Shown here one piece after another: positions 3,001-64,000 of a DNA stretch of 64,000 nt. A program made the position numbers and the translations under genes. Each line of letters begins with the position of its first letter. Within the stretch, counting starts at the first letter, position 1. A model generated the notes under the pieces. The model was not told where the DNA came from, ran no database searches, and saw only the letters and a program-made list of their open reading frames with translations. Origin of the DNA: Eutreptiella sp. 'Long Island Sound 2002' (taxonomy: Eukaryota; Euglenozoa; Euglenophyceae; Eutreptiales; Eutreptiaceae); NCBI GenBank assembly GCA_964036045.1, contig OZ038379.1, positions 116,277,604 to 116,341,603 on the forward strand, written 5' to 3'.

Positions 3001-3221
3001 AGCTCTCCAAGCTGATGTCGGTGGGGACCGAGTTGGCCAAGGAGATCCAGGAGATCAAGAGGAACTGGGTCCCCAGGTCGGACGACAAGAACAAGGAGAA
3101 CAAAGAGAACGACAAGAACAAGGACAAGGACAAGATGGGTAAGAGAGGGGGAAAGAAGAAGGGTGTCAACGAGGTTGATGCGGAGGAGAGTACCCCTACT
3201 ACCACAACCGACGCCCCTTAG
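2..3221 (+). pseudogene. gag: gag polyprotein, 5'-open, one frame break
   Basis: The frame is open from the window edge and begins with an Ala/Glu/Arg coiled coil. A Pro/Gly-rich low-complexity stretch follows (about 650-840), then a second helical segment (about 850-1,110) and a capsid-like retrotrans_gag region starting near 1,790 (KPPTYDGNPLNLDRFFEKL). At about 1,893 one extra base moves the frame; the other frame continues cleanly to the TAG at 3,219-3,221. A CCHC-like zinc finger (CFVC then H and C, near 2,845-2,900) suggests nucleic-acid binding. The C-terminus is a Lys/Asp/Asn-rich tail. Gag would form the particle that packages the RNA. The break may be mutation or a sequencing indel; programmed shifting inside gag would be unusual. 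Confidence 0.8.
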
Positions 3222-38691: not shown

Positions 38692-39966
38692 CATTGTGTA
38701 AAGGTGTCAGGGGAGTAACTTGGCGCCACCGTGGAGTTTTTCCAATCCGTTTGGACCGTTGGAAAGCCCAAGGTGTCTACTTTTTGAATATGCATGGCCA
38801 TGCTAGGCCATCCCACACCGGCTTGGAGCGGTCGGACCGTCATGGGTTGGAGGTTGGTCAAAAAAATGACGAAAAAATTTCTTTTACGAACCGAGTTGCC
38901 TGAAGTACCAGGGGGGTAACTTGGCGCCACCGTGGAGTTTTTCCAATCCGTTTGGACCGTTGGAAAGCCTAAAGTGTCTACTTCTCGAATATGCATGGCC
39001 GTGCTAGGCCGTCTCACACCGGCTTGGAGCGGTCAGGCCGTCATGGGTTGGAGGTTGGTCAAAAAAATGGCAAAAAAAATTTTTCAAAACCGGGTTGCCA
39101 GAAGTACCGGGGGGGTAACTTGGCGCCACCGTGGAGTTTTTCCAATCCGTTTGGACCGTTGGAAAGCCCAAGGTGTCTACTTTTTGAATATGCATGGCCA
39201 TGCTAGGCCATCCCACAATGGCTTGGAGCGGTCGGACCGTCATGGGTTGGAGGTTGGTCAAAAAAATGACGAAAAAATTTTTTTTCAGAACCGGGTTGCC
39301 AGAAGTACCGGGGGGGTAACTTGGCGCCACTGCGGAGTTTTTCCAATCCGTTTGGACCGTTGGAAAGCCCAAAGTGTCTACTTCTCGAATATGCATGGCC
39401 GTGCTAGGCCGTCTCACACCGGCTTGCAGCGGTCGGACCGTCATGGGTTGGAGGTTGGTCAAAAAAATGGCAAAAAAAAATTTGCAAAACCGGGTTGCCA
39501 CAAGTACCGGGGGGGTAACTTGGCGCCACCGTGGAGTTTTTCCAATCCGTTTGGACCGTTGGAAAGCCCAAGGTGTCTACTTCTTGAATATGCATGGCCG
39601 TGCTAGGCCATCCCACACCGGCTTGGAGCGGTCGGACCGTTATGGGTCGGAGGTTGGTCAAAAAAATGGCACAAAAAATTTTTCAGAACCGGGTTGCCAC
39701 AAGTACCGGGGGGGTAACTTGGCGCCACCGTGGAGTTTTTCCAATCCGTTTGGACCGTTGGAAAGCCTAAAGTGTCTACTTTCCGAATATGCATGGCCGT
39801 GCTAGGCGGCCCCACACCGGCTTGGAGCGGTCGGACCGTTATGGGTCGGAGGTTGGTCAAAAAAATGGCAAAAATCTTTTTTCAAAACCGGGTTGCCAGA
39901 AGTACTGGGGGGGTAACTTGGCGCCACCGTGGAGTTTTTCCAATCCATTTGGACCGTTGGAAAGCC
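38692..39966 (+). repeat. about 200-bp satellite array, seven units
   Basis: TAACTTGGCGCCACC recurs at 38,716, 38,917, 39,116, 39,317, 39,516, 39,715 and 39,913, period 198-201. Each unit carries CCGTTTGGACCGTTGGAAAG, a GAATATGCATGGCC block and a run of A and T. The protein-like frames across it are repeats of one another and are not genes. More units lie at 42,063-42,286, 42,999-43,102 and 47,848-48,215. Confidence 0.95.
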
Positions 39967-39969
39967 TAA

Positions 39970-40009
39970 GGACCCGTCTTTTTTTCAAAACCTGAAGCTG
40001 TAGCTTCAG
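39970..40009 (+). repeat. left terminal inverted repeat of the PIF/Harbinger-like element
   Basis: Pairs with 42,022-42,062. The first 20 bases match exactly; the inner CTGAAGCTGTAGCTTCAG segment matches after a few differing bases. Confidence 0.85.
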
Positions 40010-43102: not shown

Positions 43103-43416
43103 ACTGTAACTACGAAGCCAACCCCAGATACTGTACATTCGCCAACTCCTGGTCAACTCCATGTCGAGAGCATTCAACTTGCTTGTACTTGTGCACTGTG
43201 TTGTTGCTACGCCTTGTGCATGAAACGTGAGGAACTATTGATATTTTACAGCTTTTGGTTGCGTTGCTTTGTTGTTATGATGCAATATGTGGGTTTTTTG
43301 GGTTGAAGCCAACTTTTTGGAAGCCAAGTCAAAGTTGGCGCGCCAAGTGCCCCATTCTTCCTCTTCTTTTGCACCCTTTCTGCATTCCCTTTCCCTTCTA
43401 GGCATTTCACTTTATC

Positions 43417-45675
43417 ATGCCTCCAAAGCAACCCAAGAAGGGCAAGGGGAAGAAGGTGACAGTCACCGACCCCACGTCTGCCCCAGCCCCAGCCCCCGCT
43501 GCACCACCTAACCCCGAGGTGCAGGCGGTGCTCGACGCCCACATCGCCAACGTCGCCTCCGAGCACTTCCCCGGGGGCTATTTTCCCATCCCCTACACCC
43601 TCACCTCCCCGGACGCCGAATCCTTCCCCCAGCTCTCCCCCCTCCGCGAACCCCTGGAGGCCGCCCTCTTCGGCAAGTGGGACCAGCCGGGCAATCCCTA
43701 CTTGGTCTGGCGAATTGACGCCACCCGTGTTAACTTCGCCCTGACCAGGGGGGTTCTTAGCAGGTTCTGCTGTGCCGTGATGGGCCGGTACCCCACGACG
43801 CTCGCGGTCGAGTTGAAGCTTTCTCAAGTCACCCTTGAGGCCTTCAACAAGACCCTGAAGCTGTGCACTGCTGCAGCGTCAAAAGAGTTCGTTAACGTTC
43901 TCGACCTGCAAGAGATGCCGCCTCAGGGTCTCGACCCCGAGGAGCAGTGGCTGTGGGTGGATCCAGTCAAAAAAAGTGGCTGGACGCACCGCACGGCCAC
44001 TGACGCCGTCGTGCGGTACCAGACGGTGAAGGTGCAGGCGTGGGATGCAGTAGCTCCCACGGAGTTCTCCACCAACCGTCGCCTGCGCACCCACATCCCC
44101 GACATCACCCACCCCACCCTCTACAGCACCGACGCCCCCTTCACCATGCTTGGCATGGGTTGCCCCCACCCCTCCTTCCACAACTCCTACCCCGTCGCCA
44201 ACCACGACATCCCCAACCCCCCCATCGTCACGGAGGAGGGTTTTGCCGCGGCGGGCTACCGCCAGTATGACCGCATCATCCCCGAGGATCTGTGGGCCAG
44301 ACTGGCGGAGCTCGCCACGGTGGAACTCAACCCGTCGATGCTCGAGGAGGTGGACCTCCAGGCCCCCGGGGAAGGTGGGGGGCGCTATCAGACGACGGTC
44401 TCCAGCGTCCCCCACTGGCTCCCGGACGACCTCTGGCAGGCTGTTCTGGCCCTGCTGGGGTTCTCCCTCCCACCGCTGCAGGGACTTGAGGCCTTGTGCC
44501 CCAAGATCATGGAGCGGTGGGAGGCAGAACCCTGGAAGGGTTTCCAGATCCCCCACCGCGATTTTGCACTGTCTGTGAAACAGTCAGTGCAGTGCATGGT
44601 CGTGTTCATCCCCCTCACCACCTCTCCCCCGTCCAAGTCCCTCCAGGTGTGCCCGGGCACGCAGGGGGGCTATCACGCTGCGAATCGGTGGGATATTGTT
44701 ATCCAACCGCTTCGCAGCGTGACGCTCCTCCGCGGGACGGTGATCCACCGCGGTGCGGGCGGGCCTGGCCGGGCACTGTTCATCCCGTTTGCACCCGTCG
44801 GCTACTGGTCGCGCATGCTGACCGTAGAGCCGGAGAGTGTAACGGAGCTGATGAACAGTGTTCCGGTGATGCCCTCGGAGCTTCTGGCCGAGGGGGCTGC
44901 AGTCGGGTCCCCTCTGTGCCTCCCGTATGGGTCCGACCCGGACAGGTACCGGCCCCAGGATCCCGTTCCTGCCCCCCACGAGGTGGACATGCCGGAGGCG
45001 CCGGCGGATGCGGAGGAGAGGCCGGCCGCGCCGGCTGACGCGGATGCCGCCCCCCCCCCACAGAGTGCGGCACAGGAAGAGGAGGAGATGCCGGCGGCGC
45101 CAGCGGATGCGGAGGCGCCGGCGGATGCGGAGGCGCCGGCGGATGCGGAGGCGCCGGCGGATGCGGAGGCGCCGGCGGAAGCGGAGGAGAGGCCCGCCGC
45201 CCCCCCCCCCCGGCAGAGGAGGACTTCCTCACTCCCGACGCGATCCCCCAGCCAGTCTGCTTCGTGTCGCAGGCTGAGCAGCCGTTGGACCCCCCGGTGC
45301 CCTACATGGGGGACGTCCTCCTCCTGCAAGAGGGGGTGTCTGCGGGTCTGTTTCTGACCCCCACCGACCACGCGCACGTGGGGCCCACCGCCGAGGCGGC
45401 CAGAGCGGATGCCTGCCTCACTCCGCACATCCACCGGTGGTGGCTTCCCCCCCCCCGAGGCCACCGACTTCTGCCGCGTGCGCTGCACGGCCGGCACGGT
45501 GGTGTACTCGTTCGCCGCACTGGGCGCTGCGTTCGTGCGGGAGCCAGGGGCCGGCCGCATGGCCTGGATGGCCATGGCCCACTTCACCCCGCCCCTGAGC
45601 TCCCAGGACGCCGAGATGTTGGACCTCGTCCGCGTGGACAAGGCCCGCCGCACCATCTGCTCCTGCAGCGAGAAG
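43417..45675 (+). pseudogene. putative 2OG-Fe(II) oxygenase, copy 1 (core intact, tail frame-broken)
   Basis: From ATG 43,417 the protein starts with a Lys/Pro-rich tail (MPPKQPKKGKGKK). The block RTHIPDITHPTLYSTDAPFT is shared with the 61,371 gene. The double-stranded beta-helix signature follows: His380-x-Asp382 in IPHRDF, then VFIPLT, VCPGTQGG, VTLLRGTVIH with His444, and Arg452 in GPGRALFIPF. This fits Fe(II) and 2-oxoglutarate binding as in PhyH-like and related oxygenases. An acidic tail of PADAEA repeats (15-bp units) comes next. Two C runs (near 45,200 and 45,450) break the frame; beyond them a conserved second domain ends ICSCSEK, followed by a GTGTGC splice donor at 45,676. The substrate is unknown; nucleic acid is a reasonable guess. 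Confidence 0.6.
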
Positions 45676-45729
45676 GTGTGCCCGCGCGGTGCCTTGCATG
45701 CATGCGATGTTGTCACACGTGACACGAAT

Positions 45730-45907
45730 TTGGCGCGCGCCAAATAGCAGATTGGCGCGCCAACTTCGCAGTTGGCGCGCGCCAACTTCCATCTTGGCGC
45801 GCGCCAAGTCACCGGTTGGCGCGCCAAGTGTTCGGTTGGCGCGCGCCAAGTCAAGTTTTGGCGCGCCAAATAGCTAGTTGGCGCGCGCCAAGTGCCGTTT
45901 TGGCGCC
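45730..45907. repeat. palindrome array in copy 1: eight units and a half unit
   Basis: TTGGCGCGCGCCAA (14) or TTGGCGCGCCAA (12) units are separated by variable spacers of 8 nt, such as ATAGCAGA and CTTCGCAG. It lies just after the splice donor at 45,676. Copy 2 has one more unit at the same place. Confidence 0.95.
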
Positions 45908-46064
45908 TGAATTTAATTCGTTGGGTTTTATCGGAAACGTTGTTCTGTGGCTGGTTTTCGAGTTGTCTTCGCTGTTGCAGTGGTGTCGTTGTGTGCATTG
46001 TTTTAAGCGTTTCCCGGCGACCGTTCACGGTGACCCGTTACACACGGCCTGTTTTCTGGCATAG

Positions 46065-47407
46065 GTGATGTGGCACCGTGACGGCCCCACGTTCCTGACG
46101 GACAACGTGTGGGTGGGCATCTCCTTCGACGGGACAAAGCTCTGGCAGGCCTCCTTCGTGCATTTTGCCGTTGGAGACCTGGGGAGTCATATGCCCTTGG
46201 GCTCTTGGATCTTGCTGCGCCGATCCGAGAAGAAGGCCATCATTTCCCAATTGGCCGAGGTCTATGACCTGAACGCGGACCTCACCGTCGACGAGGTGGC
46301 GCAGCAGCAAATCCCCGATAAAGGGGGTTATACCTGCGTAAGGTGATTTGTTTTTTTATAGCAGACACCAAGGCGCAGGTCATTTTGGGGGGTTGCTCCT
46401 CCTTCACGGCCAAAAACCCCGCAGCCACCGTTTGTTGGCTGTGTGGGAAAAATCGGGCAACCATTCTGCACGAATTTGGTTGCGGGATGGGGGTGATTGT
46501 CGAGGAGTGGCTGTGGGCGGGGATGATCTGCCCGATCGTGCGCCCCGCCCAGCGGCCCCCCGACTATGGGCTGCATGGTGTGCACCGGCAAGTGCACAAT
46601 GGGCTTTCAGCCCTTGTGAACAGCCTCCACACGGTGCATCGGTGGAAAAGGGGAAAGGCCGTGAGGTGGGTGCAATGGTTCCTGGATCCCATTCGGATCC
46701 AGGCACGGACCGCCACCGGGGTGGCGTTGGAAGAGGAGAGGAAGGATAAGAAGAAGGTGCCCCTGAAAATCGAGCAGACGGCGGCTGCCGAGTGGGTGAA
46801 GAGTGAGGGATGGGACACCATGTGTGACCATTTGGAGGGGGAGGGCCTCCTGCAGCATGTCGTTGACATGGGGGGGGTCCAGGTGTCCTGGACGGACGCC
46901 TTCCGGCAATGGGGAAAATCCCTGTTGGCAATAAGCGATGTCGTCTGGAAATCCGGACCATTGCAGTTGCCCGACATGAAAATTCTGCGAACAGAATTGA
47001 AAAAAATGGGGGAGGCCCATAAGGCCTGTGAAATGAACGTCACCCTGTGTGCCCATCTGTGGATTGACCACCTGTTGGGATGGGCCCGCAGGTGGGGGCA
47101 CATTGCCATTTTTGCCGCCTTCAAAGGAGAGGGGCGGCACAAAGCCCTGAAATGTGAAATCTCAAAGCGCAGCTTTCGAGGTGGAAGTAAAGGCGGCCGG
47201 GTGTCCAGACTGCGGGGGGCCAGAGTGCGGGTGAAGGGGGGCAAGGGGGATCGCACGCGGAAGGGGTGGGGGGAAGTGATCCGCTCAGATAATCTGGACT
47301 GGGGGTTATATAATAAGAAATTTTCGGTTTGGGAGTCGTCGTGGACGAAGCAAAGGGGGTACATAGAGAATAAGGGGGTCTTCGTCCAGGCTGAACAAGG
47401 CATGTGA
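46065..47407 (+). pseudogene. CxxC protein (possible transposase), copy 1, 5' part deleted
   Basis: The first exon present in copy 2 (54,733-55,134) is missing here through the 2,020-bp deletion. What remains starts VMWHRDGPTFLTDNVWVGIS, with FDGTKLWQASFVHFAVGD. A 41-bp phase-0 intron (46,338-46,378, GTAAGG to GCGCAG) would join GGYTC to VILGGCSSFTAKN. The final exon is long and undamaged: CWLCGK, then VEEWLWAGMICPIVRP, DYGLHGVHRQVHNGL, and a basic C-terminus to the stop at 47,407. An acidic block, a later CxxC and then a His-rich helix is the layout of several RNase H-fold transposases, so it may be the transposase; this is inference from layout only. Confidence 0.5.
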
Positions 47408-47847
47408 CCTCTATATATGATTTATATGATTGATTTGACAGCTTCTTGCACATTCGCAGTCTTTTGCACATTAATCAAAAAAAGATGGAACAATGCTTTC
47501 TTCGTGCCAAGTGTGCAAGGGCAGGTGAGGGACGGAATTTCCAGTGACAACAATGGTATGCAAGTCGATGGTTTGATCGATGGGGGGACATTTGGCGCGC
47601 CAACTTGTGAATTTGCGCGAGCCCAGGCCCGGGAAGCCAACTTTGGGACTTTTGTACCGTGTAGGAGTGTTTTCAGCACGAGAGGGGCATGAAACCCGGG
47701 GTTTTTTAGGGTAAAAAGTTTCCATTTACACCAAAAAGGAGGAAAAAATCCCTAGGTAGCCAGTGTAACAACATAATAGACACCCGCCATGATTTGGCTG
47801 CATTCCGAAGCAAGTTGGCGAATGTCTCTTGGCTTCGTAGTTACAAC

Positions 47848-48215
47848 CGGGTTGCCAGAAATACCGGGGGGCTAACTTGGCGCCACCGTGGAGTTTTTCC
47901 AATCCGTTTGGACCGTTGGAAAGCCTAAGGTGTCTACTTTTTGAATGTGCATGGTCGTGCTAGGCCGTCTCACACCGGCTTGGAGCGGTCGGACCGTTAT
48001 GGGTCGGAGGTTGGTCAAAAAAATGGCAAAAAAAAATTTTCAGAACCGGGTTGCCAGAAGTACCGGGGGGGGTAACTTGGCGCCACCGTGGAGTTTTTCC
48101 AATCCGTTTGGACCGTTGGAAAGCCTAAGGTGTCTACTTTTTGAATATGCACGGCCGTGCTAGGCCGTCCCACACTGGCTTGGAGCGGTCGGACCATCAT
48201 GGGTTGGAGGTTGGT
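47848..48215 (+). repeat. satellite units right of copy 1
   Basis: Two units continue the array split by copy 1 and end at GGAGGTTGGT near 48,213, next to AATTG palindromes. Confidence 0.9.
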
Positions 48216-48710: not shown

Positions 48711-49280
48711 ACATATTCCTTTGTCTACGACGTAGATGACGAAATGGGCGCTTCTAGGGGTCGGGAAAAACACCCTTGTTTTTACAGCGCTTCTGGGAGT
48801 TTTTGAGGTAGCCCGACGCACTCGCGCATGAGTTTTTATGCGGTTCAGCCACTTTCAAGGAGAAAAGCACTTTGCATGTTGCCTCCCGCTTTGCTTCCAC
48901 CGTTCTTAGCGTCGTATGGGGTTCGTTTGTTGGCCGCGTTTTCTACGTTCCGCTTCTGTGCTTCCGGTGGTGCTTCTGGAAGCGGTTCCCTCGTTTTCCG
49001 CGTTATCCGCGTTATCCGCGTTCCGGTTTTCTGCTTCTGGTCGTGCTTCTGGAAGCGTGTTCCGCGTTATCCGCGTTATCCGCGTTCCGGTTTTCTGCTT
49101 CTGGTCGTGCTTCTGGAAGCGTTTTCCGCGTTCTCCGCGTTATCTGCGTTATCTGCGTTCCGGAGCGTTACGGAGTGTTATTGTCGTTGTGCGCGTTCTC
49201 CTAGCTTACGGGGATAACGTACGGAGCGGAGGCGGGAGCGGAGGCCCAAAAATGGCGCTTCTGTAGACAAAGGAATATGT
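48711..49280. mobile_element. 570-bp MITE-like element with internal tandem repeats
   Basis: ACATATTCCTTTGTCTAC at the left end is matched by its complement at the right end, an 18-bp terminal inverted repeat. Both ends are followed inward by GGCGCTTCT. The centre (about 48,955-49,160) has a 62-bp tandem unit containing CCGCGTTATCCGCGTTATCC. No coding capacity. The target duplication could not be set. Confidence 0.65.
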
Positions 49281-50270: not shown

Positions 50271-50508
50271 GACAAGTGTGTAACTACGAAGCCAACCCCA
50301 GATACTGTACATTCGCCAACTCCTGGTCAACTCCATGTCGAGAGCATTCAACTTGCTTGTACTTGTGCACTGTGTTGTTGCTACGCCTTGTGCATGAAAC
50401 GTGAGGAACTATTGATATTTTACAGCTTTTGGTTGTGTTGCTTTGTTGTTATGATGCAATATGTGGGTTTTTTGGGTCGAAGCCAACTTTTTGGAAGCCA
50501 AGTCAAAG

Positions 50509-50564
50509 TTGGCGCGCCAACTCTTGAGTTGGCGCGCGCCAACTCCGGTTTTGGCGCGCGCCAA
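50509..50564. repeat. palindrome array upstream of the oxygenase, three units
   Basis: Units at 50,509-50,520, 50,529-50,542 and 50,551-50,564 with 8-nt spacers CTCTTGAG and CTCCGGTT. Copy 1 has a single 12-mer at the same place (43,335-43,346). Confidence 0.95.
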
Positions 50565-50634
50565 GTGCCCCATTCTTCCTCTTCTTTTGCACCCTTTATG
50601 CATTCCCTTTCCCTTCTAGGCATTTCACGTTATC

Positions 50635-52782
50635 ATGCCTCCAAAGCAACCCAAGAAGGGCAAGGGGAAGAAGGTGACAGTCACCGACCCCACGTCTGCC
50701 CCAGCCCCAGCCCCCGCTGCACCACCTAACCCCGAGGTGCAGGCGGTGCTCGATGCCCACATCGCCAACGTGGGCTCCGAGCACTTCCCCGGGGGCTATT
50801 TTCCCATCCCCTACACCCTCACCTCCCCGGACGCCGAATCCTTCCCCCAGCCCCCCCCCCCCCGCGAACCCCTGGAGGCCGCCCTCTTCGGCAAGTGGGA
50901 CCAGCCGGGCAATCCCCACTTGGTCTGGCGAATTGACGCCACCCGTGTTAACTTCGCCCTGACCAGGGGGGTTCTTAGCAGGTTCTGCTGTGCCGTGATG
51001 GGCCGGTACCCCACGACGCTCGCGGTCGAGTTGAAGCTTTCTCAAGTCACCCTTGAGGCCTTCAACAAGACCCTGAAGCTGTGCACTGCTGCAGCGTCAA
51101 AAGAGTTCGTTAACGTTCTCGACCTGCAGGAGATGCCGCCACAGGGTCTCGACCCCGAGGAGCAGTGGCTGTGGGTGGATCCAGTCAAAAAAAGTGGCTG
51201 GACGCACCGCACGGCCACTGACGCCGTCGTGCGGTACCAGACGGTGAAGGTGCAGGCGTGGGATGCAGTAGCTCCCACGGAGTTCTCCACCAACCGTCGC
51301 CTGCGCACCCACATCCCCGACATCACCCAACCCACCCTCTACAGCACCGACGCCCCCTTCACCATGCTTGGCATGGGTTGCCCCCACCCCTCCTTCCACA
51401 ACTCCTACCCCGTCGCCAACCTCGACATCCCCAACCCCCCCATCGTCACGGAGGAGGGTTTTGCCGCGGCGGGCTACCGCCAGTATGACCGCATCATCCC
51501 CGAGGATCTGTGGGCCAGACTGGCGGAGCTCGCCACGGTGGAACTCAACCCGTCGATGCTCGAGGAGGTGGACCTCCAGGCCCCCGGGGAAGGTGGGGGG
51601 CGCTATCAGACGACGGTCTCCGGCGTCCCCCACTGGCTCCCGGACGACTTCTGGCAGGCTGTTCTGGCCCTGCTGGGTTTCTCCCTCCCACCGCTGCAGG
51701 GACTTGAGGCCTTGTGCCCCAAGATCATCGAGCGGTGGGAGGCGGTGGGATATTGTTATCCAACCGCTTCGCAGCGTGACGCTCCTCCGCGGGACGGTGA
51801 TCCACCGCGGTGCGGGCGGGCCTGGCCGGGCACTGTTCATCCCGTTTGCACCCGTCGGCTACCGGTCGCGCATGCTGACCGTAGAGCCGGAGAGTGTAAC
51901 GGAGCTGATGAACAGTGTTCCGGTGATGCCCTCCGAGCTTCTGGCCGAGGGGGCTGCAGTCGGGTCCCCTCTGTGCCTCCCGTATGGGTCCGACCCGTCC
52001 AGGTACCGGCCTTAGGATCCACCACCCCGGCAGAACTACAGCCCCCTCGACCAGGGGTCTGAGGAGGCCGAGGCAGGCGCCACCGACCCCGTGCCTGCCC
52101 CCCACGAGGTGGACATGCCGGAGGCGCCGGCGGATGCGGAGGAGAGGCCGGCCGCGCCGGCTGACGCGGATGCCGCCCCCCCCCCATAGAGTGCGGCACA
52201 GGAGGAGGAGGAGATGCCGGCGGCGCCAGCGGATGCGGAGGCGCCGGCGGATGCGGAGGCGCCGGCGGATGCAGAGGCGCCGGCGGAAGCGGAGGAGAGG
52301 CCGGCCGCCCCCCCCCCCGGCAGAGGAGGACTTCCTCACTCCCGACGCGATCCCCCAGCCAGTCTGCTTCGTGTCGCAGGCTGAGCAGCCGTTGGACCCC
52401 CCGGTGCCCTACATGGGGGACGTCCTCCTCCTGCAAGAGGGGGTGTCTGCGGGTCTGTTTCTGACCCCCACCGACCACGCGCACGTGGGGCCCACCGCCG
52501 AGGCGGCCAGAGCGGATGCCTGCCTCACTCCGCACATCCACCGGTGGTGGCTTCCCCCCCCCCGAGGCCACCGACTTCTGCCGCGTGCGCTGCACGGCCG
52601 GCACGGTGGTGTACTCGTTCGCCGCACTGGGCGCTGCGTTCGTGCGGGAGCCAGGGGCCGGCCGCATGGCCTGGATGGCCATGGCCCACTTCACCCCGCC
52701 CCTGAGCTCCCAGGACGCCAAGATGTTGGACCTCGTCCGCGTGGACAAGGCCCGCCGCACCATCTGCTCCTGCAGCGAGAAG
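50635..52782 (+). pseudogene. putative 2OG-Fe(II) oxygenase, copy 2, catalytic centre deleted
   Basis: Same start and N-terminal half as copy 1, with few substitutions. A 161-bp deletion after IIERWEA removes the His-x-Asp strand and the VFIPLT and PGTQGG blocks and shifts the frame. TAG codons at about 52,013 and 52,188 and the two C runs (11 and 10 C) add breaks. The second domain (about 52,330-52,782) is kept, ending CSCSEK before a GTGTAC donor. Copy 2 also has about 70 bp between RYRP and the acidic repeats that copy 1 lacks. This copy cannot make an active oxygenase. Confidence 0.7.
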
Positions 52783-52836
52783 GTGTACCCGCGCGGTGCC
52801 TTGCATGCATGCGATGTTGTCACACGTGACACGAAT

Positions 52837-53036
52837 TTGGCGCGCGCCAAATAGCAGATTGGCGCGCCAACTTCGCAGTTGGCGCGCGCCAACTTCCATC
52901 TTGGCGCGCGCCAAGTCACCGGTTGGCGCGCCAAGTGTTCCGTTGGCGTGCGCCAAGTCCAGTTTTGGCGCGCGCCAAGTCAAGTTTTGGCGCGCCAAAT
53001 AGCTAGTTGGCGCGCGCCAAGTGCCGTTTTGGCGCC
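52837..53036. repeat. palindrome array in an intron: nine units and a half unit
   Basis: Every spacer is 8 nt. Units alternate between 14 and 12 nt; one has a T in the core (TTGGCGTGCGCCAA). The array ends in TTGGCGCC. It lies between the CSCSEK exon and the VPIHYANF exon. Confidence 0.95.
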
Positions 53037-53159
53037 TCAATTTAATTCGTTGGGTTTTATCGGAAACGTTGTTCTGTGGCTGGTTTTCGAGTTGTCTTCG
53101 CTGTTGCAGTGGTGTCGTTGTGTGCATTGTTTTATGCTTGTGTTGTTGCGCATTTGCAA

Positions 53160-54414
53160 GTCCCCATCCACTACGCCAATTTTCAATTGGAAGTGGACCC
53201 GCGTCCAGTGCCCGTGCCGGCCGGGGCGGAGGAGGTGGAGGGGCAGCCGCAGGAGCAGCGGCAGGAGCAGCGGCAGGAGCAGCGGCAGGAGCAGCAGGAG
53301 GGGTTGGAGGTGGATGTGGACGTGGTGGTGGATTGGGAAGTTCCGGCGGTCCCGGAACCGGCGGACTTCGGGGACGCCTTGCACAGCCCCGACAAGTTCC
53401 TGAAGGTGACGTCCGCCGAGGCGACGGCGGTGGACGTCGTCGATGGGGGGGGGACGATCATCAGCCGCCTGTTCCAGGCGCAGGTGATTCGGCGGGGTTC
53501 GGGACAGAATAGGGTGGTGGAGTGCCCGTTCTGGGCAGTGGTGCAGGGGTAGGGGGGGGTGCAACCATGGGTTGTCTCCTTTTGCCCTTTGTGCAGGTGC
53601 GCCCCCCCTCCACGCACAACCGGCTCCTCCTCTGCAGCATTGACGCTCTGGGACAGCTGCAGAGGTGGAAGCGGTGTGAGTGGAGCAACGTGCGGGCCAT
53701 TGCCCCCGCCCCCCACTTGAAGGAGGCAACGCAGGCGTTTCTGCTCCGCTTCCAGAAGCAGCTCGTGGGGAAAGGGCCGAAGGGGGAGAAGGCGGGCAGG
53801 GCCGCATCTGACGTGTCTGGGGACCCCTCCCTGCAGAGCAAGGGCCGCACGGAGCAGCAAGCTAGGGGCTCGAGGCGCCCTCGCCCCACGACCACCCCCC
53901 GGGAGGCAGCACAGGCAGCGCAGGCAGCGGGAGACGGGGGGGGGGGCACGGGAGAAGGCGGAGATTCTCCGACTGGAGGGGGGAAAACAAGCTGGTGCGC
54001 GAGCAGCTGAAGGCGGCGGAGGCCGCCCGCAAGACGGCACAGGACGCGCTCACCGGTGAGCGCGCCTTGTGGGAGCGGCCGGAGAAGGGGTGGGAAAAGC
54101 AGAGGGGGGAGTTGCAGCAGCAGGTGACCGCCACGGCGCAGGTGCATGCAGTTGGGGGGGGGGCAGAGGGTAGTGCCGACCCCGACCATGGGCAGCATGT
54201 GCTGTACCTGCAGGCGGCGGCGGTGGAGTTGCACTCTGCACTCAGCGCCCAACGCCATGTGGCCATCAACATGGGGGTCAAAGAGGCCACCCTCACGGAG
54301 CTGAAGGGCCTGCCGGACAAGCACACGGTTGCGCACCTGCTTGACCCCAAGCGCAGGCGGGCGGAAGAGAGCGAGGGGAGTCAGAGTCAGGGCAGCAAGC
54401 GGTCGAAGAAATGA
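53160..54414 (+). pseudogene. C-terminal exons of the oxygenase gene: Gln/Glu repeats, coiled coil, basic tail
   Basis: The frame VPIHYANFQLEVDPRPVPVP starts where the 61,371 gene, after an equivalent intron, has VPFTAWSPNIRHHTRRQYKP; both follow an exon ending in Lys. The acceptor here reads GCAAG where GCAG would fit, so one base may have been gained. EQRQ repeats follow (12-bp units, 53,248-53,300). An intron GGGTAGG to TTTGTGCAG (about 53,549-53,594) joins WAVVQ to VRPPSTHNRLLLCSIDALGQ. A G run near 53,940 breaks the frame; then a coiled coil (REQLKAAEAARKTAQDAL) and the basic end PKRRRAEESEGSQ. The last part could carry a nuclear localisation signal. It is absent from copy 1. Confidence 0.5.
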
Positions 54415-54437
54415 GCAGGCACTGGCTGGGCATGGTT

Positions 54438-54623
54438 TTGGCGCGCGCCAAGTGGTAAGTTGGCGCGCCAAATCCTGATTTGGTGGGCGCCAACAGGGGA
54501 GTTGGCGCGCGCCAAATGGGAAGTTGGCGCGCCAACTTGCCACTTGGCGCGCGCCAACTCAGGACTTGGCGCGCGCCAACTGACGAGTTGGCGCGCGCCA
54601 AATCCTGAATTGGGACGCGCCAA
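54438..54623. repeat. palindrome array between the oxygenase and CxxC genes, nine units
   Basis: Nine units and eight spacers, all spacers 8 nt. Two units carry substitutions in the core (TTGGTGGGCGCCAA and TTGGGACGCGCCAA), yet spacing is kept. All eight spacers have A at position 7. Confidence 0.95.
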
Positions 54624-54732
54624 CTGCCTGCCAACTGTGTGCCATCTGTGTGCGAACGTGCAACAACGTTCCGTTGCATGATCCAACCCGCCTGCCACGT
54701 CCTCACGTGCCGCAGGTCTTTGTTTGTGCACC

Positions 54733-56458
54733 ATGCAGCGGCCCTTTGAGCAGCTGGCGCCCTCAAACTACCGCGACAGGCGCGCGCGGCTGGCACGCCT
54801 TCGCGAAGTCGTGGGGGAGATTTTGGGGCCACATTGGGAAGTACACGTCAAACCCGGCCGCCGCCGCATCCACCCCGTTTGCGGGGAGAGCAAACCCCCC
54901 ACCCCCGATTTGGAGCTGTTGGCCGCGGCCATTCTGTGGGAGAGCTGCAAAAATGGCGACAGCTTCCGCAAACTGCAGTACAGCCGGGCACACAGCCAAT
55001 GGAAGTGCCCATGGGGAACCCTGATGCAGGTGCGAAAGGCATTGTCCGCCCCCCGTGTCACGGAGGTCCATTTTCAGACGGACGAGGACAATGACATTTT
55101 TGGGGCCGCATGCAATCTGTGGCAGAAACTGCAGGTATTTTCACCCTGCACCAAAGCGTTTCCCGGCGACCGTTCACGGTGACCCGTTACACACGGCCTG
55201 TTTTCTGGCATAGGTGATGTGGCACCGTGACGGCCCCACGTTCCTGACGGACAACGTGTGGGTGGGCATCTCCTTCGACGGGACAAAGCTCTGGCAGGCC
55301 TCCTTCGTGCATTTTGCCGTTGGAGACCTGGGGAGTCATATGCCCTTGGGCTCTTGGATCTTGCTGCGCGGATCCGAGAAGAAGGCCATCATTTCCCAAT
55401 TGGCCGAGGTCTATGACCTGAACGCGGACATCACCGAGGTGGCGCAGCAGCAAATCCCCGATAAAGGGGGTTATACCTGCGTAAGGTGATTTGTTTTTTT
55501 ATAGCAGACACCAAGGCGCAGGTCATTTTGGGGGGTTGCTCCTCCTTCACGGCCAAAAACCCCGCAGCCACCGTTTGTTGGCTGTGTGGGAAAAATCGCC
55601 CAGCGGCCCCCCGACTATGGGCTGCATGGTGTGCACCGGCAAGTGCACAATGGGCTTTCAGCCCTTGTGAACAGCCTCCACACGGTGCATCGGTGGAAAA
55701 GGGGAAAGGCCGTGAGGTGGGTGCAATGGTTCCTGGATCCCATTCGGATCCAGGCACGGACCGCCACCGGGGTGGCGTTGGAAGAGGAGAGGAAGGATAA
55801 GAAGAAGGTGCCCCTGAAAATCGAGCAGACGGCGGCTGCCGAGTGGGTGAAGAGTGAGGGATGGGACACCATGTGTGACCATCTGGAGGGGGAGGGCCTC
55901 CTGCAGCATGTCGTTGACATGGGGGGGGTCCAGGTGTCCTGGACGGACGCCTTCCGGCAATGGGGAAAATCCCTGTTGGCAACAAGCGATGTCGTCTGGA
56001 AATCCGGACCATTGCAGTTGCCCGACATGAAAATTCTGCGAACAGAATTGAAAAAAATGGGGGAGGCCCATAAGGCCTGTGAAATGAACGTCACCCTGTG
56101 GGCCCATCTGTGGATTGACCACCTGTTGGGATGGGCCCGCAGGTGGGGGCACATTGCCATTTTTGCCGCCTTCAAAGGAGAGGGGCGGCACGAAGCCCTG
56201 AAATGTGAAATCTCAAAGCGCAGCTTTCGAGGTGGAAGTAAAGGCGGCCGGGTGTCCAGACTGCGGGGGGCCAGAGTGCGGGTGAAGGGGGGCAAGGGGG
56301 ATCGCACGCGGAAGGGCTGGGGGGAAGTGATCCGCTCAGATAATCTGGACTGGGGGTTATATAATAAAAAATTTTCGGTTTGGGAGTCGTCGTGGACGAA
56401 GCAAAGGGGGTACATAGAGAATAAGGGGGTCTTCGTCCAGGCTGAACAAGGCATGTGA
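54733..56458 (+). pseudogene. CxxC protein (possible transposase), copy 2, complete 5' end
   Basis: Exon 1 from ATG 54,733: MQRPFEQLAPSNYRDRRARL, a basic block GRRRIHPVCGESK, and FQTDEDNDIFGAACNLWQKL. A phase-0 intron 55,135-55,213 (GTATTT to GGCATAG) leads to VMWHRDGPTFLTDNVWVGIS. A 41-bp intron fits at 55,481-55,521. In the last exon a 92-bp deletion right after CWLCGKN removes the EFGCGMGVIVEEWLWAG part and shifts the frame; the rest, from RPPDYGLHGVHRQ, matches copy 1. Neither copy is complete, but together they show the layout of the ancestral gene. A transposase role is inferred from layout and position only. Confidence 0.55.
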
Positions 56459-56642
56459 CCTCTATATATGATTTATATGATTGATTTGACAGCTTCTTGC
56501 ACATTCGCAGTCTTTTGCACATTAATCAAAAAAAGATGGAACAATGCTTTCTTTGTGCCAAGTGTGCAAGGGCACGTGAGGGACAGATTTTCCAGTGACA
56601 ATAATGGTATGCAAGTCGATGGTTTGATCGGTGGGGGGACAT

Positions 56643-56760
56643 TTGGCGCGCGCCAAGTCGCAAGTTGGCGCGCCAAGTCCGGACTTGGCGCGCGCCAACT
56701 TCCCAGTTGGCGCGCGCCAAGTCCGGACTTGGCGCGCCAACTTGCGACTTGGCGCGCCAA
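56643..56760. repeat. palindrome array near the right end, six units, itself an inverted repeat
   Basis: Six units with spacers GTCGCAAG, GTCCGGAC, CTTCCCAG, GTCCGGAC, CTTGCGAC. The outer spacers are complements of each other and GTCCGGAC is self-complementary, so the 118-bp array is nearly one large palindrome around 56,703. Copy 1 has a single 12-mer here (47,592-47,603). Confidence 0.95.
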
Positions 56761-57002
56761 CTTGTGAATTTGCGCGAGCCCAGGCCCGGGAAGCCAACTT
56801 TGGGACTTTTGTACCGTGTAGGAGTGTTTTCAGCACGAGAGGGGCATGAAACCCGGGTTTTTTCAGGGTAAGAAGTTTCCATTTACACCAAAAAGGAGGA
56901 AAAAATCCCTAGGTAGCCAGTGTAACAACATGATAGACACCCGCCATGATTTGGTTGCATTCCGAAGCAAGTTGGCGAATGTCTCTTGGCTTCGTAGTTA
57001 CT

Positions 57003-57689: not shown

Positions 57690-59548
57690 AAATCCACCTT
57701 CTTCCACAGTCGAGTACCCTTTTGCGGATACATCGTCAATAAAGATGAGGTACACATCTACCCCGAAAAGATCAAGGTCATTCAAGGTTGGCCTCCGCCC
57801 CCCACGGTTCATGAAGTTCGACAATTTATCGGGTTGTGTGGATTTTACCAGCAGTTCGTCGAAGGATTCCAAGCTGTAGCAGCCCCTCCGACCGCGATGT
57901 TTAAGTCAGATTTCGAGTGGGAGTGGACAGCTGTGCACCAAGCTTCCTTCGACAAGCCGAAGCAAGCCATGATCAATGCGACACATTTCAGTGCCATCGA
58001 CCCCCGACAGCAGTATCACTTGTACACGGATGCTTCGAAAGATTGCGTGGGGGCCACGCTCGCGCAGCGATGTGCGCATGGGAAGTACAAGGGACATCTT
58101 CGACCTATTGCCTTTATGTCGCGGAAGATGCAATCTGCTGAAACTCGATACCCTATTCGAGAACAGGAGTTGTTGGGCATCGTGCTAGCTTTGAAGCAGT
58201 GGTTTCATCTACTTTGAGGACCACAGCAGGGGCATGTGCACACCGACCACGAAAGCCTTCGTTATCTTCATATATGTCCTCGATTACTGACACCACCACA
58301 AGCACGTTGGAACCAGTTCCTCGAGGAGTACAACCTCACATTGTGGTACGTACCGGGTCTCGAGAATCCAGCAGCGGACGCCTGTTCCCGCCTGACTTCG
58401 CGACAGTTGATGGACATGGAGAATGCTACACGTACACGGGTGTTCGTGGTACCTTTCGTGGTACCAAAATGGTCGAGAACTGGGTTTCCCTTGAAGGGGA
58501 ACCTGTCGATGCGTTCCTACATGTGCTCGAGGACTCCTTCTCGCATGATGAAGTGTGGCCCCAGCCATACGACCGCCTCTACGCATCACTTCGAAGCGGA
58601 CGCTCCATGGGAAAGAGACCTGATGTTGACGAAGACGCAGAACAAGCCCACCAATTCGACACTGAACCAGCCTTCGAGCCGGAGGACCTGGAGCCACTGC
58701 CGTCCAACGAGGCGTTGGCTGAGGATTCACACCAGTCTGAAGTACATCTGGGCGATGCTGGCAATGAGGTACCAGACATGTCGACCGACCCCGACGACCT
58801 TCCTGACATAGACATGAACCGCCCCCTTCGAGTCACTTTTGGCAAAGAACTTCGATATGCCCCCACCTTGACGGAACTGATCCGCTGTTGACGCCACCGA
58901 GACGGTACACTACAGCCAGTTCCCTTGCCTGGAGTTGGACCGAACACACCGTACCCGTCGAGTCTTAAAGGTACACACCGTCGAGTACACCGACACTATC
59001 AGTGTAAGGATTTGACTTCGACAGCTGTGTGGGCAGCAGCCTATCGAGAAGACCCACGTACGAGACACATCTACGAAGTCGCGGTTTGAAGCCCTACAGC
59101 ACGACACCAACTCCGAGACGCCAAGTTGTCCTTCGATGATGGCAAGTTCTTCCATTTGTCGACAATGGGCAAGTGTGTGCTTGTCCCTCGAACGCTCGTT
59201 ACCTCGAGTCTGGCCATGTATCACGAGTCGGAGGTGTACGGCCACTCGGGAGTACTTCGAACCATGGCGCTGATTAAGCGCGATCACGTTTGTTCGCACC
59301 TTCGACACTACATTGAACATTACATTTTGAGCTGCGATGTGTGGCAAACGGCTAAGTCACGGCATGTCGACACCACCAGACAGCCCACGCCCTTGCCGGT
59401 GCCCGATACCAAGTGGCATAGTGTGGCCCTCGATTGGGTTTCAGGATTGCCGTCGACCACCAGAGGCCATGATGCTATCATGACTCTGGTTGATCGATTC
59501 TCCAAACGTGGAATGTTCATCCCTTGCCGCTGGGATGCAGCGTTCTAG
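57690..59548 (+). pseudogene. truncated Ty3/Gypsy pol: RT end, RNase H, start of integrase
   Basis: From about 57,690 the frame gives FCGYIVNKDEVHIYPEKIKV and RQFIGLCGFYQQFVEGFQ (RT connection), then RNase H with HLYTDASKDCVGATLAQR, EQELLGIVLALKQW and HTDHESLRYL after an in-frame TGA at 58,215. LWYVPGLENPAADACSRL ends RNase H. After a frame change the linker is acidic. Integrase begins near 59,126 with a zinc domain whose second Cys is Trp (SCDVWQT), and the first catalytic Asp (VALDWVSGLP). It is cut at 59,548, where unrelated DNA begins. It differs from the 1-8.2 kb element and has lower GC. Confidence 0.85.
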
Positions 59549-59710: not shown

Positions 59711-59860
59711 CTCTAACTAGTTAGAACGGGGTTAGAACGGGGTTAGAGCACGAGTTATCGCGTGGGTTATCGCGCGATAACCTCGTTATCGCGGGGGTTA
59801 TCGCGGGGGTTATCGCGCGATAACTAGTTATCGCGCGAGTTATCGCTTAGGTTATCGCGC
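59711..59860. repeat. TTATCGCGCGATAA-type palindrome cluster
   Basis: Perfect GTTATCGCGCGATAAC units (near 59,767 and 59,812) are mixed with half units GTTATCGCG and with AGAACGGGGTT repeats. It lies directly upstream of the 59,922 start, as the TTGGCGCG arrays lie upstream of the oxygenase in the TIR family. Confidence 0.85.
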
Positions 59861-59921: not shown

Positions 59922-61025
59922 ATGGCCCTTGCTGCTGCCCACGCTTGGTGCGAACACCATCAAAAGCTCCTTGGGCTCCGTCGCCTTGGCGGTCCCGAGG
60001 GGTTTACGATGGGTGACGCAAACGTGAGGCGCCCTGTGGCGACCCGCTTTGAACATGGTGTGGACTTTGGACTCCTTGTCCATAAGTCCCCCTTCATGGC
60101 CGACCAGAGAGACCCCCTTGTTCTCAGCAACTACATCTTCGAGTTGCTAGAGGTAAATCCAGGGGTTGCTGGATTCTTGATTCAGCTGCATCCCGAGGAT
60201 GTGGACGCGGTGGTGGAGTCCGTCACCGCCCATGCCGAGAAGGGTGCGGGGACGAAGACGACCCTTTATGTGGGTCAGGAGGAGGAGGAGGAGGAAGTGG
60301 AGGAGGAGGAGGATGCGGGGGGGAAGGAGAAGCCCCACCGCCCCCTCATGATTAGTCTAAGTGTGCAGAAGGGAACGATCCGACCCGGTAAGGGGAAAGG
60401 GAAGTCGGATGGATGGTTCCCCCAAACCCTCACCCACAACACCTGCCGGGTCTGCACTGACGACCCCGAAAACAAGCTCCCCATGCACTCCCTTTGCCCC
60501 ACAAGGGAGTGGGAGCGTGAGTGGTATGGGGTCACCACTCCCAACATTATTTCGGGGCGGGGGGTGTTTCTTTTTCCTTTTGGGGCAACCCCCCCCCTTA
60601 TTGGGGAGGCGGAGGAGGTGGTTGCCGCCGAGCCCTTGGGGGCCTTTAATAGGGACCCCAATCACCTTGTGCTCACTGTGGGGGGAACGCTGGTGGTCAA
60701 CCACCTCCGGGACCACGATTTTTTGAGTGATGTGCAGCTGCAAAGTCTTTTGGATGATCTGGATAGGGTGCCTCTCTCAGAGAAGGCACCCATTTTCAAT
60801 GAGAACCCCCCCATTTCATGTCGGCAGGCCCCAAGATTCTGGGACCCGCCGCACATTGTATGGCAACTATGGGGGTGCCAATCACCACAAGCACAACCCC
60901 CACAAGCTCCATGATCTGCCAGTCCTCAAAAGGGTGGCAGATCGTGTGCTGGAGACGGCGAAGAAGACTGTGGTGGGGGGTTTCGGATGGAGCTTTACCT
61001 GTGTACCCTTCGTGAACCGGCCGTT
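59922..61025 (+). pseudogene. gene resembling the N-terminal half of an AlkB-type 2OG oxygenase, truncated
   Basis: ATG 59,922 opens MALAAAHAWCEHHQKLLGLR. A Glu-rich stretch (near 60,283-60,330) and a zinc-like cluster (CRVCTDD then HSLC) follow. The last third reads VVNHLRDHDFLSDVQLQSLL, then after a frame shift near 60,850 RRTLYGNYGGANHHKHNPHK, LPVLKRVADRVLETAKK and FGWSFT. AlkB-family proteins show this order: a loop with FLS and LL, a PRxTxxYG motif, a WxxxLxxIxxxV helix, then FNxxLxNxY. The HxD and distal His would come next, but the sequence stops at palindromic DNA from 61,034. The match is by motif order only. Confidence 0.4.
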
Positions 61026-61036
61026 TGAATCCGAGA

Positions 61037-61322
61037 TTCACGGTACCGTGAATTTCACCCAATTTTGCTGTGTTTTGCTCGTAACTTGGTGCTATCGTGT
61101 GCTTTTGTCGTGCTACCTTCGCCCAAAGTAAGATGCAACAAATAGGTGCAATTTAGAGGTTTAAAGTCCCCGCATGGTTTAACAGATTTGGTGAGATTCA
61201 CGTGAATGTGAGATTCACACACCTAAATTCACGCAGAAATTCACGCTAGATTCACAGATTCACAGTATGTGAAATTCGTACGAATTTCGTACGAATTTCG
61301 TACGAATTTCGTACGAATTTAC
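61037..61322. repeat. palindromes upstream of the 61,371 gene
   Basis: TTCACGGTACCGTGAA at 61,037-61,052, several GATTCAC/GTGAATC words (61,190-61,262), and four TTCGTACGAA units at 11-bp period (about 61,274-61,318). Confidence 0.9.
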
Positions 61323-61370: not shown

Positions 61371-64000
61371 ATGTCGCAGCAGACTATGTCGCAGCTCGCC
61401 AGCCTGGCCTCGCGCCCCGACCCCGCAGCCGACACCCTCGCCCACTACCAAGCCCTCCCCGTTGCCCACCATCAATTGGAGGAGGCAACGTACGAGTCGG
61501 AGGCACTGGGGGTGGATGCCATCGTGGGCTGGGCAGCCTCCCTCGACCCCTCCCCCGATGTCATCCACATCGACATGCGCAGCCCCACCCGCATCAGCTA
61601 CCTCGGGGGGAGGGGATGGGCCACAACCCTGTGGAGGGAACTGCGCCACCAACTCCCCACCCTCAAATTTCTCCATCTGACCCCTCTCCCCTCCAGTGTT
61701 GACCAGCTCCTCAACTCGATGAGGAATAACCCTGTGGGGAAGCCTAAGGACGCCCACGTCCAGGTGTACCCCACCACTAACCTCGTCCACACCCCCCCCC
61801 CACTGCGATATGGTGTGCCTGCAGGATCTTGCTGCAGGTGCACCAGCAGGCCACTCTTTTTTCCCCTTTTCTTGGGATCTTGCCAACCCCCGGTGGTGGG
61901 ATGATTTGGGCATCGCCCCTTTCCATCCCACCATCCCCCCCCAGGTGCACGTCCCCGACGTCACCCACCCCACCTTCTACAGCACAACTTCTTTGCAATG
62001 GTACCGTGGTGCCTCATGCGCCCCCCCCTTCATTTCCAGTGAGCCCCCCCTCCGCACCGAACCCCTTCCCGACCCCCCTCATGGGGTGACGGGCAGCCCT
62101 GACCCCGCCCCCGACAGGGTTGGCCCCTCTCAGCCGCCCCTCAACTTTGTTGATGGGAACGGCTACATTGTGCTTCGGGGGCTTGTGGAGGCACGGGATT
62201 GTGAGGTGGGGTGGAACAAGGTGATGAAGGCGTGGGGCAGCGGCGACGAAAAAGTCGTCGCAAAAAATTTTGAGCTCCTTTTCAACGCCGCGCGGAGTGA
62301 GGAGCAGGCCAAGGATCCCGAGCTCCCCCGCCGGTGGCAAAGCAAGAGCACCTTGGGGTCGGGGGTGGGGGGGCCTCTCTTCAAGAAGTTCCACCCCCAC
62401 CTCACCGAAAGTGTCCCTGGGGTTGAGGACCTCCACCCAATGACGCCGGGCAGCGTCATTGTGGCCAGTGTGGGGAGTGGGCCGCAGCTCCCCCACACCG
62501 ACGTGACCACCCACCCCGAAGTCCTCCCCCCCAGCGACAAGGCGGTGGGGGACTGCCACCTGAGTAGCTTCCTCTGCTTGTCAGAGGACTACCAGGTGGC
62601 GGTGCAGGCGGGGACGGCCCTGGGGGAGGCGGCGGAGGCGCGCTGGGACACCGTTCAGCTGCATCGGGGGGACATGCTGCTGATGGTGGCCACCAGCCGC
62701 CATCATGGATTGCCTGCCCACCCCGACTCCAAGGATGGGCTGCAGGGGGCTCTTTTTAACTTGTGGACCCCCGACCCCCGACACAAACACCACCAGGCCA
62801 ACACCACACACTTGGACGCCATCCCCCCAAAGGAGGCCCTGGACGTTGCTGGGGATTTGTCCAGCTGGGACCTCCCCAACGTGGACCAGGTGTTGTGGGT
62901 GGGGAAGGGGGCGGTTGCGAGGGTGGGGTTGTGGGAGGGGGAGGTTGCCCAGGCCCTGTTCGCCGACGCCCCGCAGTCGCTCCCGGCAGGCCCCCCCACC
63001 TGCCCCTTCCTCCCCACCTTCATCTCCCGGTCGGCCCCGGCCGCCGACCTCGCCGTCATCGAGGTCGGCCCCCAGTGCATGCTGTTCTTCGTGGGCAGCG
63101 TGCACCAGCTGGAGGTCGTGAAGGGGGGCGATGTCGACGCGGAGTCGGAGATCCACTTCGCCTTGTCCGGCATTGCCCCCCCGGGTCGGCCGACCACGCT
63201 GTGGCACCTGGTGAACACGGTCCCAGCGTGGCGGTCGCCCAAGTGCGCGAGGACCGGGGCATGGAGCATCACCTGCCCATGCGACTGCAAGGTGTGCCTG
63301 CTTGTGTGTTTGCTTTGTGTATTTGCAACAATTGGACGAAATTCACGTGAAATTCGTACGAAATTCGTACGAAATTCGTACGAATTTCGTACGAATTTCA
63401 CGTGAATAAATTTGTGTGAATTTTCTCGAGATGTGAAATTCGTACGAAATTCGTACGAATTTCGTACGAATTTCCGTGAATTTCGTCCAATTTGCTCCTT
63501 TTGCTCTTCCATTGCCCCGTGTCCACTCCCCCTTTCTCAATTTTTGCCTTGCACACCTCCCCACATCTGCATGCAGGTCCCGTTCACCGCTTGGTCGCCG
63601 AATATTCGGCACCACACCAGGCGCCAGTACAAGCCCCGGCCCCGATTGCCTGAGGAGCACGCCGAGCCCGCCGAAGGCCCCGGTGGCGCCCAGCCCGCAG
63701 GCACCGGCGATGGACGGGCACCAAGCGAGGCCGGCAGTGTGCGCAGTGTGGGGTCGCAGCGCTCTCGGCGTTCGGGAGGCAGCGAGGCCAGCACCGCCAG
63801 GGGGCATATGGCGCGCGAGGTGGTGGTGCCCCAGCCGTCCCGCGACGAGCTGGGCGAGGCCCACACCGACCCCCCCCTGGACCGGGTGACCCTGGCCGCC
63901 AGGCAGCCGGATCCGGCCTGGACCCAGCAGGTGTCGCCCGGGCCGGATGGGCGGCAGCGGCACCTCAGTGCCGTGTGGGACATGGAGTTGGAGTCGCGGG
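61371..64000 (+). CDS. divergent second member of the 2OG oxygenase family, 3' end outside the window
   Basis: Exon 1, 61,371-61,763, starts MSQQTMSQLASLASRPDPAA. A phase-0 intron (61,764-61,944, GTGTAC to CCCCAG) leads to VHVPDVTHPTFYSTTSLQWY, the counterpart of IPDITHPTLYST in the TIR-family oxygenase. The helix core has His-Thr-Asp in PQLPHTDVTT (62,494-62,502) and a distal His in ATSRHHGLPAHPD (62,701). The position of the 2OG-binding Arg seems to be Gly (LQGALFNLW), so activity is doubtful. The second domain ends ITCPCDCK, then an intron (63,292-63,576) full of palindromes and exon 3 from VPFTAWSPNIRHHTRRQYKP, open to the window end. Exon 2 has no frame breaks. Confidence 0.55.
63341..63472. 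repeat. intronic palindrome array, including a 67-bp near-perfect palindrome
   Basis: 63,341-63,407 reads TTCACGTGAA, four TTCGTACGAA units, TTCACGTGAA, joined by single A or T; the whole is nearly self-complementary. A second run of three TTCGTACGAA units lies at about 63,437-63,472. All of it is inside the intron 63,292-63,576. Confidence 0.95.

Follow-up and report, generated by a model that had tools for sequence, protein, structure and literature searches.

The stretch of DNA analyzed here (the window) comprises 64,000 nt of contig OZ038379.1 from Eutreptiella sp. 'Long Island Sound 2002'. It contains two copies of a transposable element, termed family A, whose non-coding parts carry arrays of short palindromes separated by spacers of 8 nt. 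The element is a DNA transposon that carries several genes, among them one for a DDE-like transposase, and it comes closest to Plavaka. Its four arrays alternate with three open reading frames (ORFs A, B and C), array 1 coming first and array 4 last (Table 1); array 3, ORF B and the beginning of ORF C are missing from copy 1. Copy 1 is inserted in a tandem repeat of about 200 bp (38710-39971 and 47845-48215), in whose uninterrupted units the empty site is visible. Two related families, B and C, carry arrays of the same kind. Between the families, the letters of both motif and spacer have changed and the geometry has been kept, which is the strongest result of this analysis.

The ends of families A, B and C carry TGTAACTACGAAG, with termini of the 5'-TGT..ACA-3' type and with mismatches at the right ends of copy 2 and of a family B element (L051). 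A 2-bp target-site duplication (TSD) flanks all nine elements with both ends in one locus (copy 1, AC; copy 2, TG; L041, CA; L042, GG; L043, GT; L044, TA; L050, AT; L052, TA; L053, AA); this count excludes a site in L047 that resembles the terminal inverted repeat (TIR) with three mismatches, as well as TIRs without a partner in their locus. One 90%-identity cluster of ORF C homologues, P0001, comprises 192 members, and the motifs DGTKLW, IADTKAQV, CWLC, HGVHRxVH and KGEGRH, recognized by eye, are common to the transposases of families A and B. ORF A may be a dioxygenase, a lead provided by motifs seen by eye that resemble the HxD...H which TET/JBP enzymes carry in a double-stranded beta-helix (HRD and a distal H in family A; HTD and HHG in an ORF near 61 kb of the window).

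Table 1. Coordinates of the features within the window.
Feature	Position	Strand	Description
Transposon copy 1, family A	43105..47845	+	TIR TGTAACTACGAAGCCAA; TSD AC/AC; inside the ~200-bp tandem repeat
ORF A, copy 1	43417..45357	+	646-amino-acid frame; PHRD ... VIHRGAGGPGRALF, 2-oxoglutarate-Fe(II) dioxygenase-like motifs (by eye)
Array 1, copy 1	43335..43346	unstranded	single remaining unit
Array 2, copy 1	45730..45911	unstranded	9 units, last one degenerate
Array 4, copy 1	47592..47625	unstranded	2 units, last one degenerate
Transposon copy 2, family A	50279..57002	+	TIR TGTAACTACGAAGCCAA; TSD TG/TG; last base of right TIR deviates
Array 1, copy 2	50509..50564	unstranded	3 units; left subterminal; ORF A ATG 70 bp downstream
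ORF A, copy 2	50635..52829	+	two overlapping frames, 50635-52062 and 51984-52829
Array 2, copy 2	52837..53040	unstranded	10 units, last one degenerate; between ORF A and ORF B
ORF B pieces, copy 2	53076..54414	+	53076-53552, 53522-54010, 53995-54414; C-terminus rich in lysine and arginine (by eye); may bind the arrays
Array 3, copy 2	54438..54623	unstranded	9 units, of which 2 have two mismatches; separates ORF B from ORF C
ORF C transposase pieces, copy 2	54733..56458	+	in ORFs 54724-55182, 55214-55489, 55586-56458; DDE-like motifs, CWLC, HGVHRxVH
Array 4, copy 2	56643..56782	unstranded	7 units, last one degenerate; right subterminal, ~220 bp from element end
Type D array	59755..59860	unstranded	TTATCGCGCGATAA and direct TTATCGCG half-sites, mostly 12-bp steps; facing gaps of 4 and 5 nt
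Type E array	61277..61315	unstranded	CGTACG every 11 bp
Second type E array	63355..63468	unstranded	CGTACG, 11-bp steps and one 53-bp step; at the end of ORF 61810-63405

Exact array units of two lengths occur in the window, the 12-mer TTGGCGCGCCAA 14 times and the 14-mer TTGGCGCGCGCCAA 20 times, against shuffle expectations of 0.00 and 0.01. All four arrays of copy 2 begin where the first-pass annotation had placed them (50509, 52837, 54438 and 56643). Its report of a uniform 8-nt spacer, counted 24 times in this copy, also holds: with the degenerate last units of two arrays included, copy 2 has 29 units, and 25 of its 25 inter-unit spacers are 8 nt long. This figure is based on unit coordinates that include degenerate and mutated units; an automatic parser gives 24 of 25, the mutated unit at 54480 being parsed as a 10-mer. 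Centers of neighboring units lie 20-22 bp apart, with a mean of 21.28 bp, equivalent to 2.03 turns at 10.5 bp per turn.

The arrays lie between the genes and in the subterminal region at either end, and this placement is kept in the related families. Such a layout bears on the possibility that the arrays serve transposition only, as subterminal enhancers to which the transposase binds, without any part in expression or silencing. Arrays 1 and 4 of copy 2 are indeed symmetric, approximately 220-230 bp from the element ends, and the TIRs of family A have single copies of the array half-site, with GCCAA and CGCCA present in both. However, the two largest arrays of copy 2 (10 and 9 units) are internal, between genes, and the family B element in L052 likewise has two internal arrays, making a purely transpositional role unlikely.

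In other copies of family A, the 8-nt spacing is dominant, though not universal. Of 300 spacers parsed in 20 further loci and the window, 283 measure 8 nt. When exact half-sites facing each other within 40 nt are counted, 220 of 254 gaps are 8 nt and 23 are 28 or 30 nt, the length expected when one mutated unit is skipped; the others are eight of 1 nt at one array 1 site, two of 10 nt and one of 6 nt. If each half-site may contain one mismatch, the gaps within 40 nt number 331, with 282 of 8 nt and 16 of 1 nt, the remainder including chance pairs and half-site-like letters within spacers. Throughout the assembly (2.28 Gb, 2205 contigs), a count spanning gaps of 8-27 nt found GCGCGCCAA-N8-TTGGCGCGC at 5,537 places, compared with 668 for gaps of 9-27 nt. 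Two variants account for 21 of the 23 places in the latter group whose letters are listed, 18 involving the 1-nt site and three being 10-nt gaps; of the rest, one has a 6-nt gap, then a unit and next an 8-nt gap, and the other is a poly-C stretch. The 1-nt variant consists of TTGGCGCGCCAA-C-TTGGCGCGCCAA in array 1 of L039, L040, L042, L043, L044, L046, L047 and L050. Gaps of 9-20 nt occur at 229 places and are 10 nt long in 44 of 50 among the matches listed. A subfamily represented in L049 (about 4058-4333) has 12-mers beside 10-nt gaps, with the 22-bp period retained.

Families B and C carry the motifs TTTRCGYRCGYAAA and TTGACGCGCGCTAA, respectively, again with 8-nt gaps. In family B, whose units are TTTACGCACGCAAA or TTTGCGTGCGTAAA and others like them, all 20 facing gaps counted with exact half-sites in L051 and L052 are 8 nt; in family C (L053; unit TTGACGCGCGCTAA), the gap is 8 nt in 8 of 8. 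These figures come from two loci and one locus, and the patterns were picked after the arrays had been seen. For family C, a wider half-site pattern yields a 6-nt gap in 6 of 6 cases, reflecting a shifted register, whereas the 8-nt result belongs to the narrower one. For family B, a loose parse with up to four mismatches produced mixed spacings from false units and was replaced by the exact half-site count. The first-pass annotation had further proposed that every site would face the same side of the DNA. This is close for family A, at 2.03 turns per unit, but the 22-bp period of families B and C, at about 2.1 turns, makes the face shift gradually over a long array.

Family B transposases (the P0020 group) are approximately 54% identical to family A P0001 and are present in many copies in this genome, with 149 scored matches, among which are also family A copies at about 55-56%. 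On the reverse strand of L052, a family B element (2127-8005) has the same gene order as family A, with arrays at 2385-2494, 4567-4745, 5554-5598 and 7729; all four array places correspond, two of them internal. L051 shows three corresponding array places, and its left end was not found. L053 encodes an ORF A homologue (23% identity over 491 amino acids, E 5e-21), in which the motif reads HRM and the aspartate is absent. No transposase match was found in this locus, so that the TIR, the 2-bp duplication and ORF A are the basis for counting family C as related. All three families have the same initial 13 bp in the TIR, followed, a few single forms apart, by CCA in A, TAA in B and ACA in C; these letters were read among the first 100 matches listed from a search with TGTAACTACGAAGNNA, which gave 772 and 750 matches (control, 1 and 2). 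They equal the array half-site at both ends in family A (GCCAA) and at the left end of L052 in family B (GTAAA). In family C, where TTTGAC and TTTAGC are the main half-sites and TTTTGTC a minority form, they do not match the main half-site.

A comparison of the three motifs also informs two other explanations. Host E2F/DP factors might bind the arrays and switch the element on in S phase, considering that TTGGCGCG fits the plant E2F consensus TTSSCGSS, which family A units match. Nevertheless, units of families B and C and of the type D and E arrays elsewhere in the window do not match it, although both B and C have 8-nt gaps and a similar array placement; moreover, E2F binding would give no reason for a fixed 8-nt gap. 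With only family A matching the consensus, this explanation was rejected as very improbable. Alternatively, the palindromes might act as hairpins or cruciforms in replication, processing or termination, since family A units are perfect palindromes and array 4 as a whole is nearly palindromic. A loopless palindrome of 12-14 nt would, however, make a poor hairpin, family B and C units are imperfect palindromes, and neither the fixed facing gaps nor the conserved spacer positions described below would be explained. The hairpin explanation was accordingly rejected and is barely conceivable.

The constant gap might also be the product of a passive history, in which arrays grew by duplication or inversion of 20- or 22-bp modules and the 8 nt was merely inherited. 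Some modules have been duplicated or inverted: nine pairs of copy-2 spacers differ by 0-1 letters, compared with about 3.5 expected, array 4 is nearly inverted-symmetric, and identical spacers recur across many copies. Yet most spacers look independent. Within two mismatches there are 27 pairs, against a column-shuffle mean of 23.1, and this number was reached by 438 of 2000 shuffles. The copy-2 spacers are clearly more alike than under full shuffles, largely because spacer positions 2 and 7 are conserved. Five alignments of copies 1 and 2, low-complexity stretches and arrays included, contain 17 gap openings and 97 mismatches, indicating that insertions and deletions are not rare here. Because the other spacers, no more alike than column-shuffled ones, seem to have diverged widely without a change in length while such events occur, the passive model is weak, and it is weaker still given that families B and C keep 8 nt with different motifs and spacers; we regard it as improbable. 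The first-pass annotation's proposal of selection for a binding geometry is thus supported.

What is held constant may be narrower than the palindrome itself. The gap inside the palindrome is 2 nt in 19 of 19 cases in family B and in 7 of 7 in family C, and mostly 2 (183) or 0 (114) in family A. One family B stretch begins and ends with half-sites flanking a full unit, and positions 2 and 7 of the spacer are T and A in 92 of 112 distinct spacers (orientation-symmetrized). Together, the fixed facing gap, the variable palindrome gap, the half-site ends in family B and the two spacer positions suggest a rigid dimer across the gap, and the rigid unit may be half-site-N8-half-site. Two CpG dinucleotides stand at fixed places in the 14-nt units of all three families (TTnnCGnnCGnnAA). 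In the window, 21 of the 23 14-mers of this form lie in family A arrays and two in the type D array at 59.7 kb. Among 14-mer units, CpG transitions number 17 at the central CG and four at the outer CGs, in copies that are related rather than independent.

Taken together, it appears somewhat probable that the arrays act as operators in a Plavaka-like DNA transposon with several genes and are bound by a putative element-encoded protein. Such a protein would recognize the half-site ANTTGGCGC as a dimer across the 8-nt gap (GCGCCAA-N8-TTGGCGC), and adjacent dimers would stack about two turns apart, which would make binding cooperative and confine it to dense arrays. In front of each gene, the bound protein could sustain transcription of the element or protect it from silencing; near the ends, it could help to bring the transposase to the right element. 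A change of motif between families would stop related elements from using each other's proteins. ORF B and the N-terminus of ORF C are the candidate array binders, and the evidence favors neither. More speculatively, binding could be sensitive to methylation of the shared CpGs of TTnnCGnnCGnnAA, and the arrays could be a target of the dioxygenase-like ORF A.

Several observations weigh against an operator function of this kind. Family A itself includes the 1-nt and 10-nt gap variants, copy 2 contains the near-identical spacer pairs, and the type D and E arrays in the same window have no 8-nt gaps. At 6 of the 8 array ends in copy 2, the outer half of the palindrome is intact (by eye), which favors the palindrome as the unit. 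A prior prediction of an ACAA half-site for family C was borne out in part only, and the right TIR of family B (GTAATG) and the left TIR of family C (GACAGTG) agree less closely with the half-site idea. For the element proteins, no match reached the Pfam cut-off and no sequence match in PDB was credible. For the transposase, no relevant Pfam match appeared at E up to 10 among 29 members of A1, and none was found for ORF A; matches over the Pfam cut-off came from retrotransposon neighbors only. AlphaFold gave no usable fold for ORF A or the related 61-kb ORF, with mean predicted local distance difference test scores of 33.6 and 31.1.

A broader and rather doubtful extension of the operator reading is a family-specific operator code. 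Each Plavaka-like family would have its own CpG motif built on the TTnnCGnnCGnnAA template. At both ends and in front of every gene, this motif would form a rigid lattice with a period of about 22 bp and facing gaps of 8 nt. A fast-evolving element protein would read this motif, coupled to a self-encoded dioxygenase-like enzyme keeping the CpGs unmodified, and the TIR half-site would switch along with the motif. If so, motif switching would let several related families share one genome without cross-talk. The constraint itself is measurable, with motif letters varying and spacing constant, and the presence of several natural families in one genome offers a test of joint specificity change in a DNA-binding protein and its sites. 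Should the dioxygenase-like gene be active, site recognition and base modification would be joined in one mobile element.

Other features of the window include the type D array, which fits the TTnnCGnnCGnnAA template, not the 8-nt gap, and lies just upstream of ORF 59922-60914. The type E palindrome arrays surround ORF 61810-63405, which has an HTD...HHG dioxygenase-like motif and is 33% identical to ORF A over 61 amino acids. In addition, Ty3/gypsy-like retrotransposon pieces are located at 5294-8211 (reverse transcriptase, RNase H, integrase and chromodomain) and 57834-59548 (RNase H and integrase zinc-binding domain), and a tandem repeat of 64-73 bp made from CGTTATCCG and CTTCTGGAAGCG lies at 48929-49163.

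Among known systems, PlavakaA has the same TGT..ACA termini and 2-bp TSDs as the element described here, and Plavaka, in the CMCT clade with its TET/JBP-bearing members, resembles it in that extra genes are carried, one of them dioxygenase-like here (PMC12730594). In the parts of that source covered here, the TET-bearing Plavaka families are all PlavakaB and binding arrays did not appear in the description (PMC12730594). The present element has no Pfam match. For the Plavaka/CMCT pattern of a DDE domain with C(2)C and H(3-4)H between the second D and the E, the motifs were recognized by eye only. In maize, Spm/En carries many short TnpA sites near its ends and promoter, tied to control by CpG methylation; unlike the arrays here, these are non-palindromic 12-mers of variable spacing and orientation. 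MITEs (miniature inverted-repeat transposable elements) bearing E2F sites are also known, including those that spread E2F sites in Brassica. The likeness lies in transposon-amplified sites of the TTSSCGSS type, but only family A fits the E2F consensus, and the fixed-gap arrays and family-specific motifs remain unexplained by this comparison. Fixed-gap palindrome arrays in transposons were not described in the titles and abstract openings among the papers listed by the searches, a coverage that omits most subscription journals and is not proof of absence.

Closest in function, by analogy, would be the VANC system of Arabidopsis VANDAL elements, although no VANC relative was identified among the element proteins. 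VANC21 binds arrays of YAGTATTAY in non-coding parts of VANDAL21, and VANC6 motifs differ (PMC5735166). VANDALs thus resemble the present families in having short-motif arrays in the non-coding parts of a multi-gene DNA transposon, with different motifs in related elements, and motif density matters in that system (PMC5735166, PMC10398659). The VANC21 targets, as far as described there, are 9-nt motifs in one orientation, whereas here palindromes or near-palindromes that contain CpG face each other across a fixed gap of 8 nt. Families A, B and C show the VANC-type feature, each having its own motif arrayed in non-coding regions. Anti-silencing by transposons through motif arrays has, in the sources covered, been described for Arabidopsis VANDALs, and a similar layout is present here in another type of transposon and another genome.

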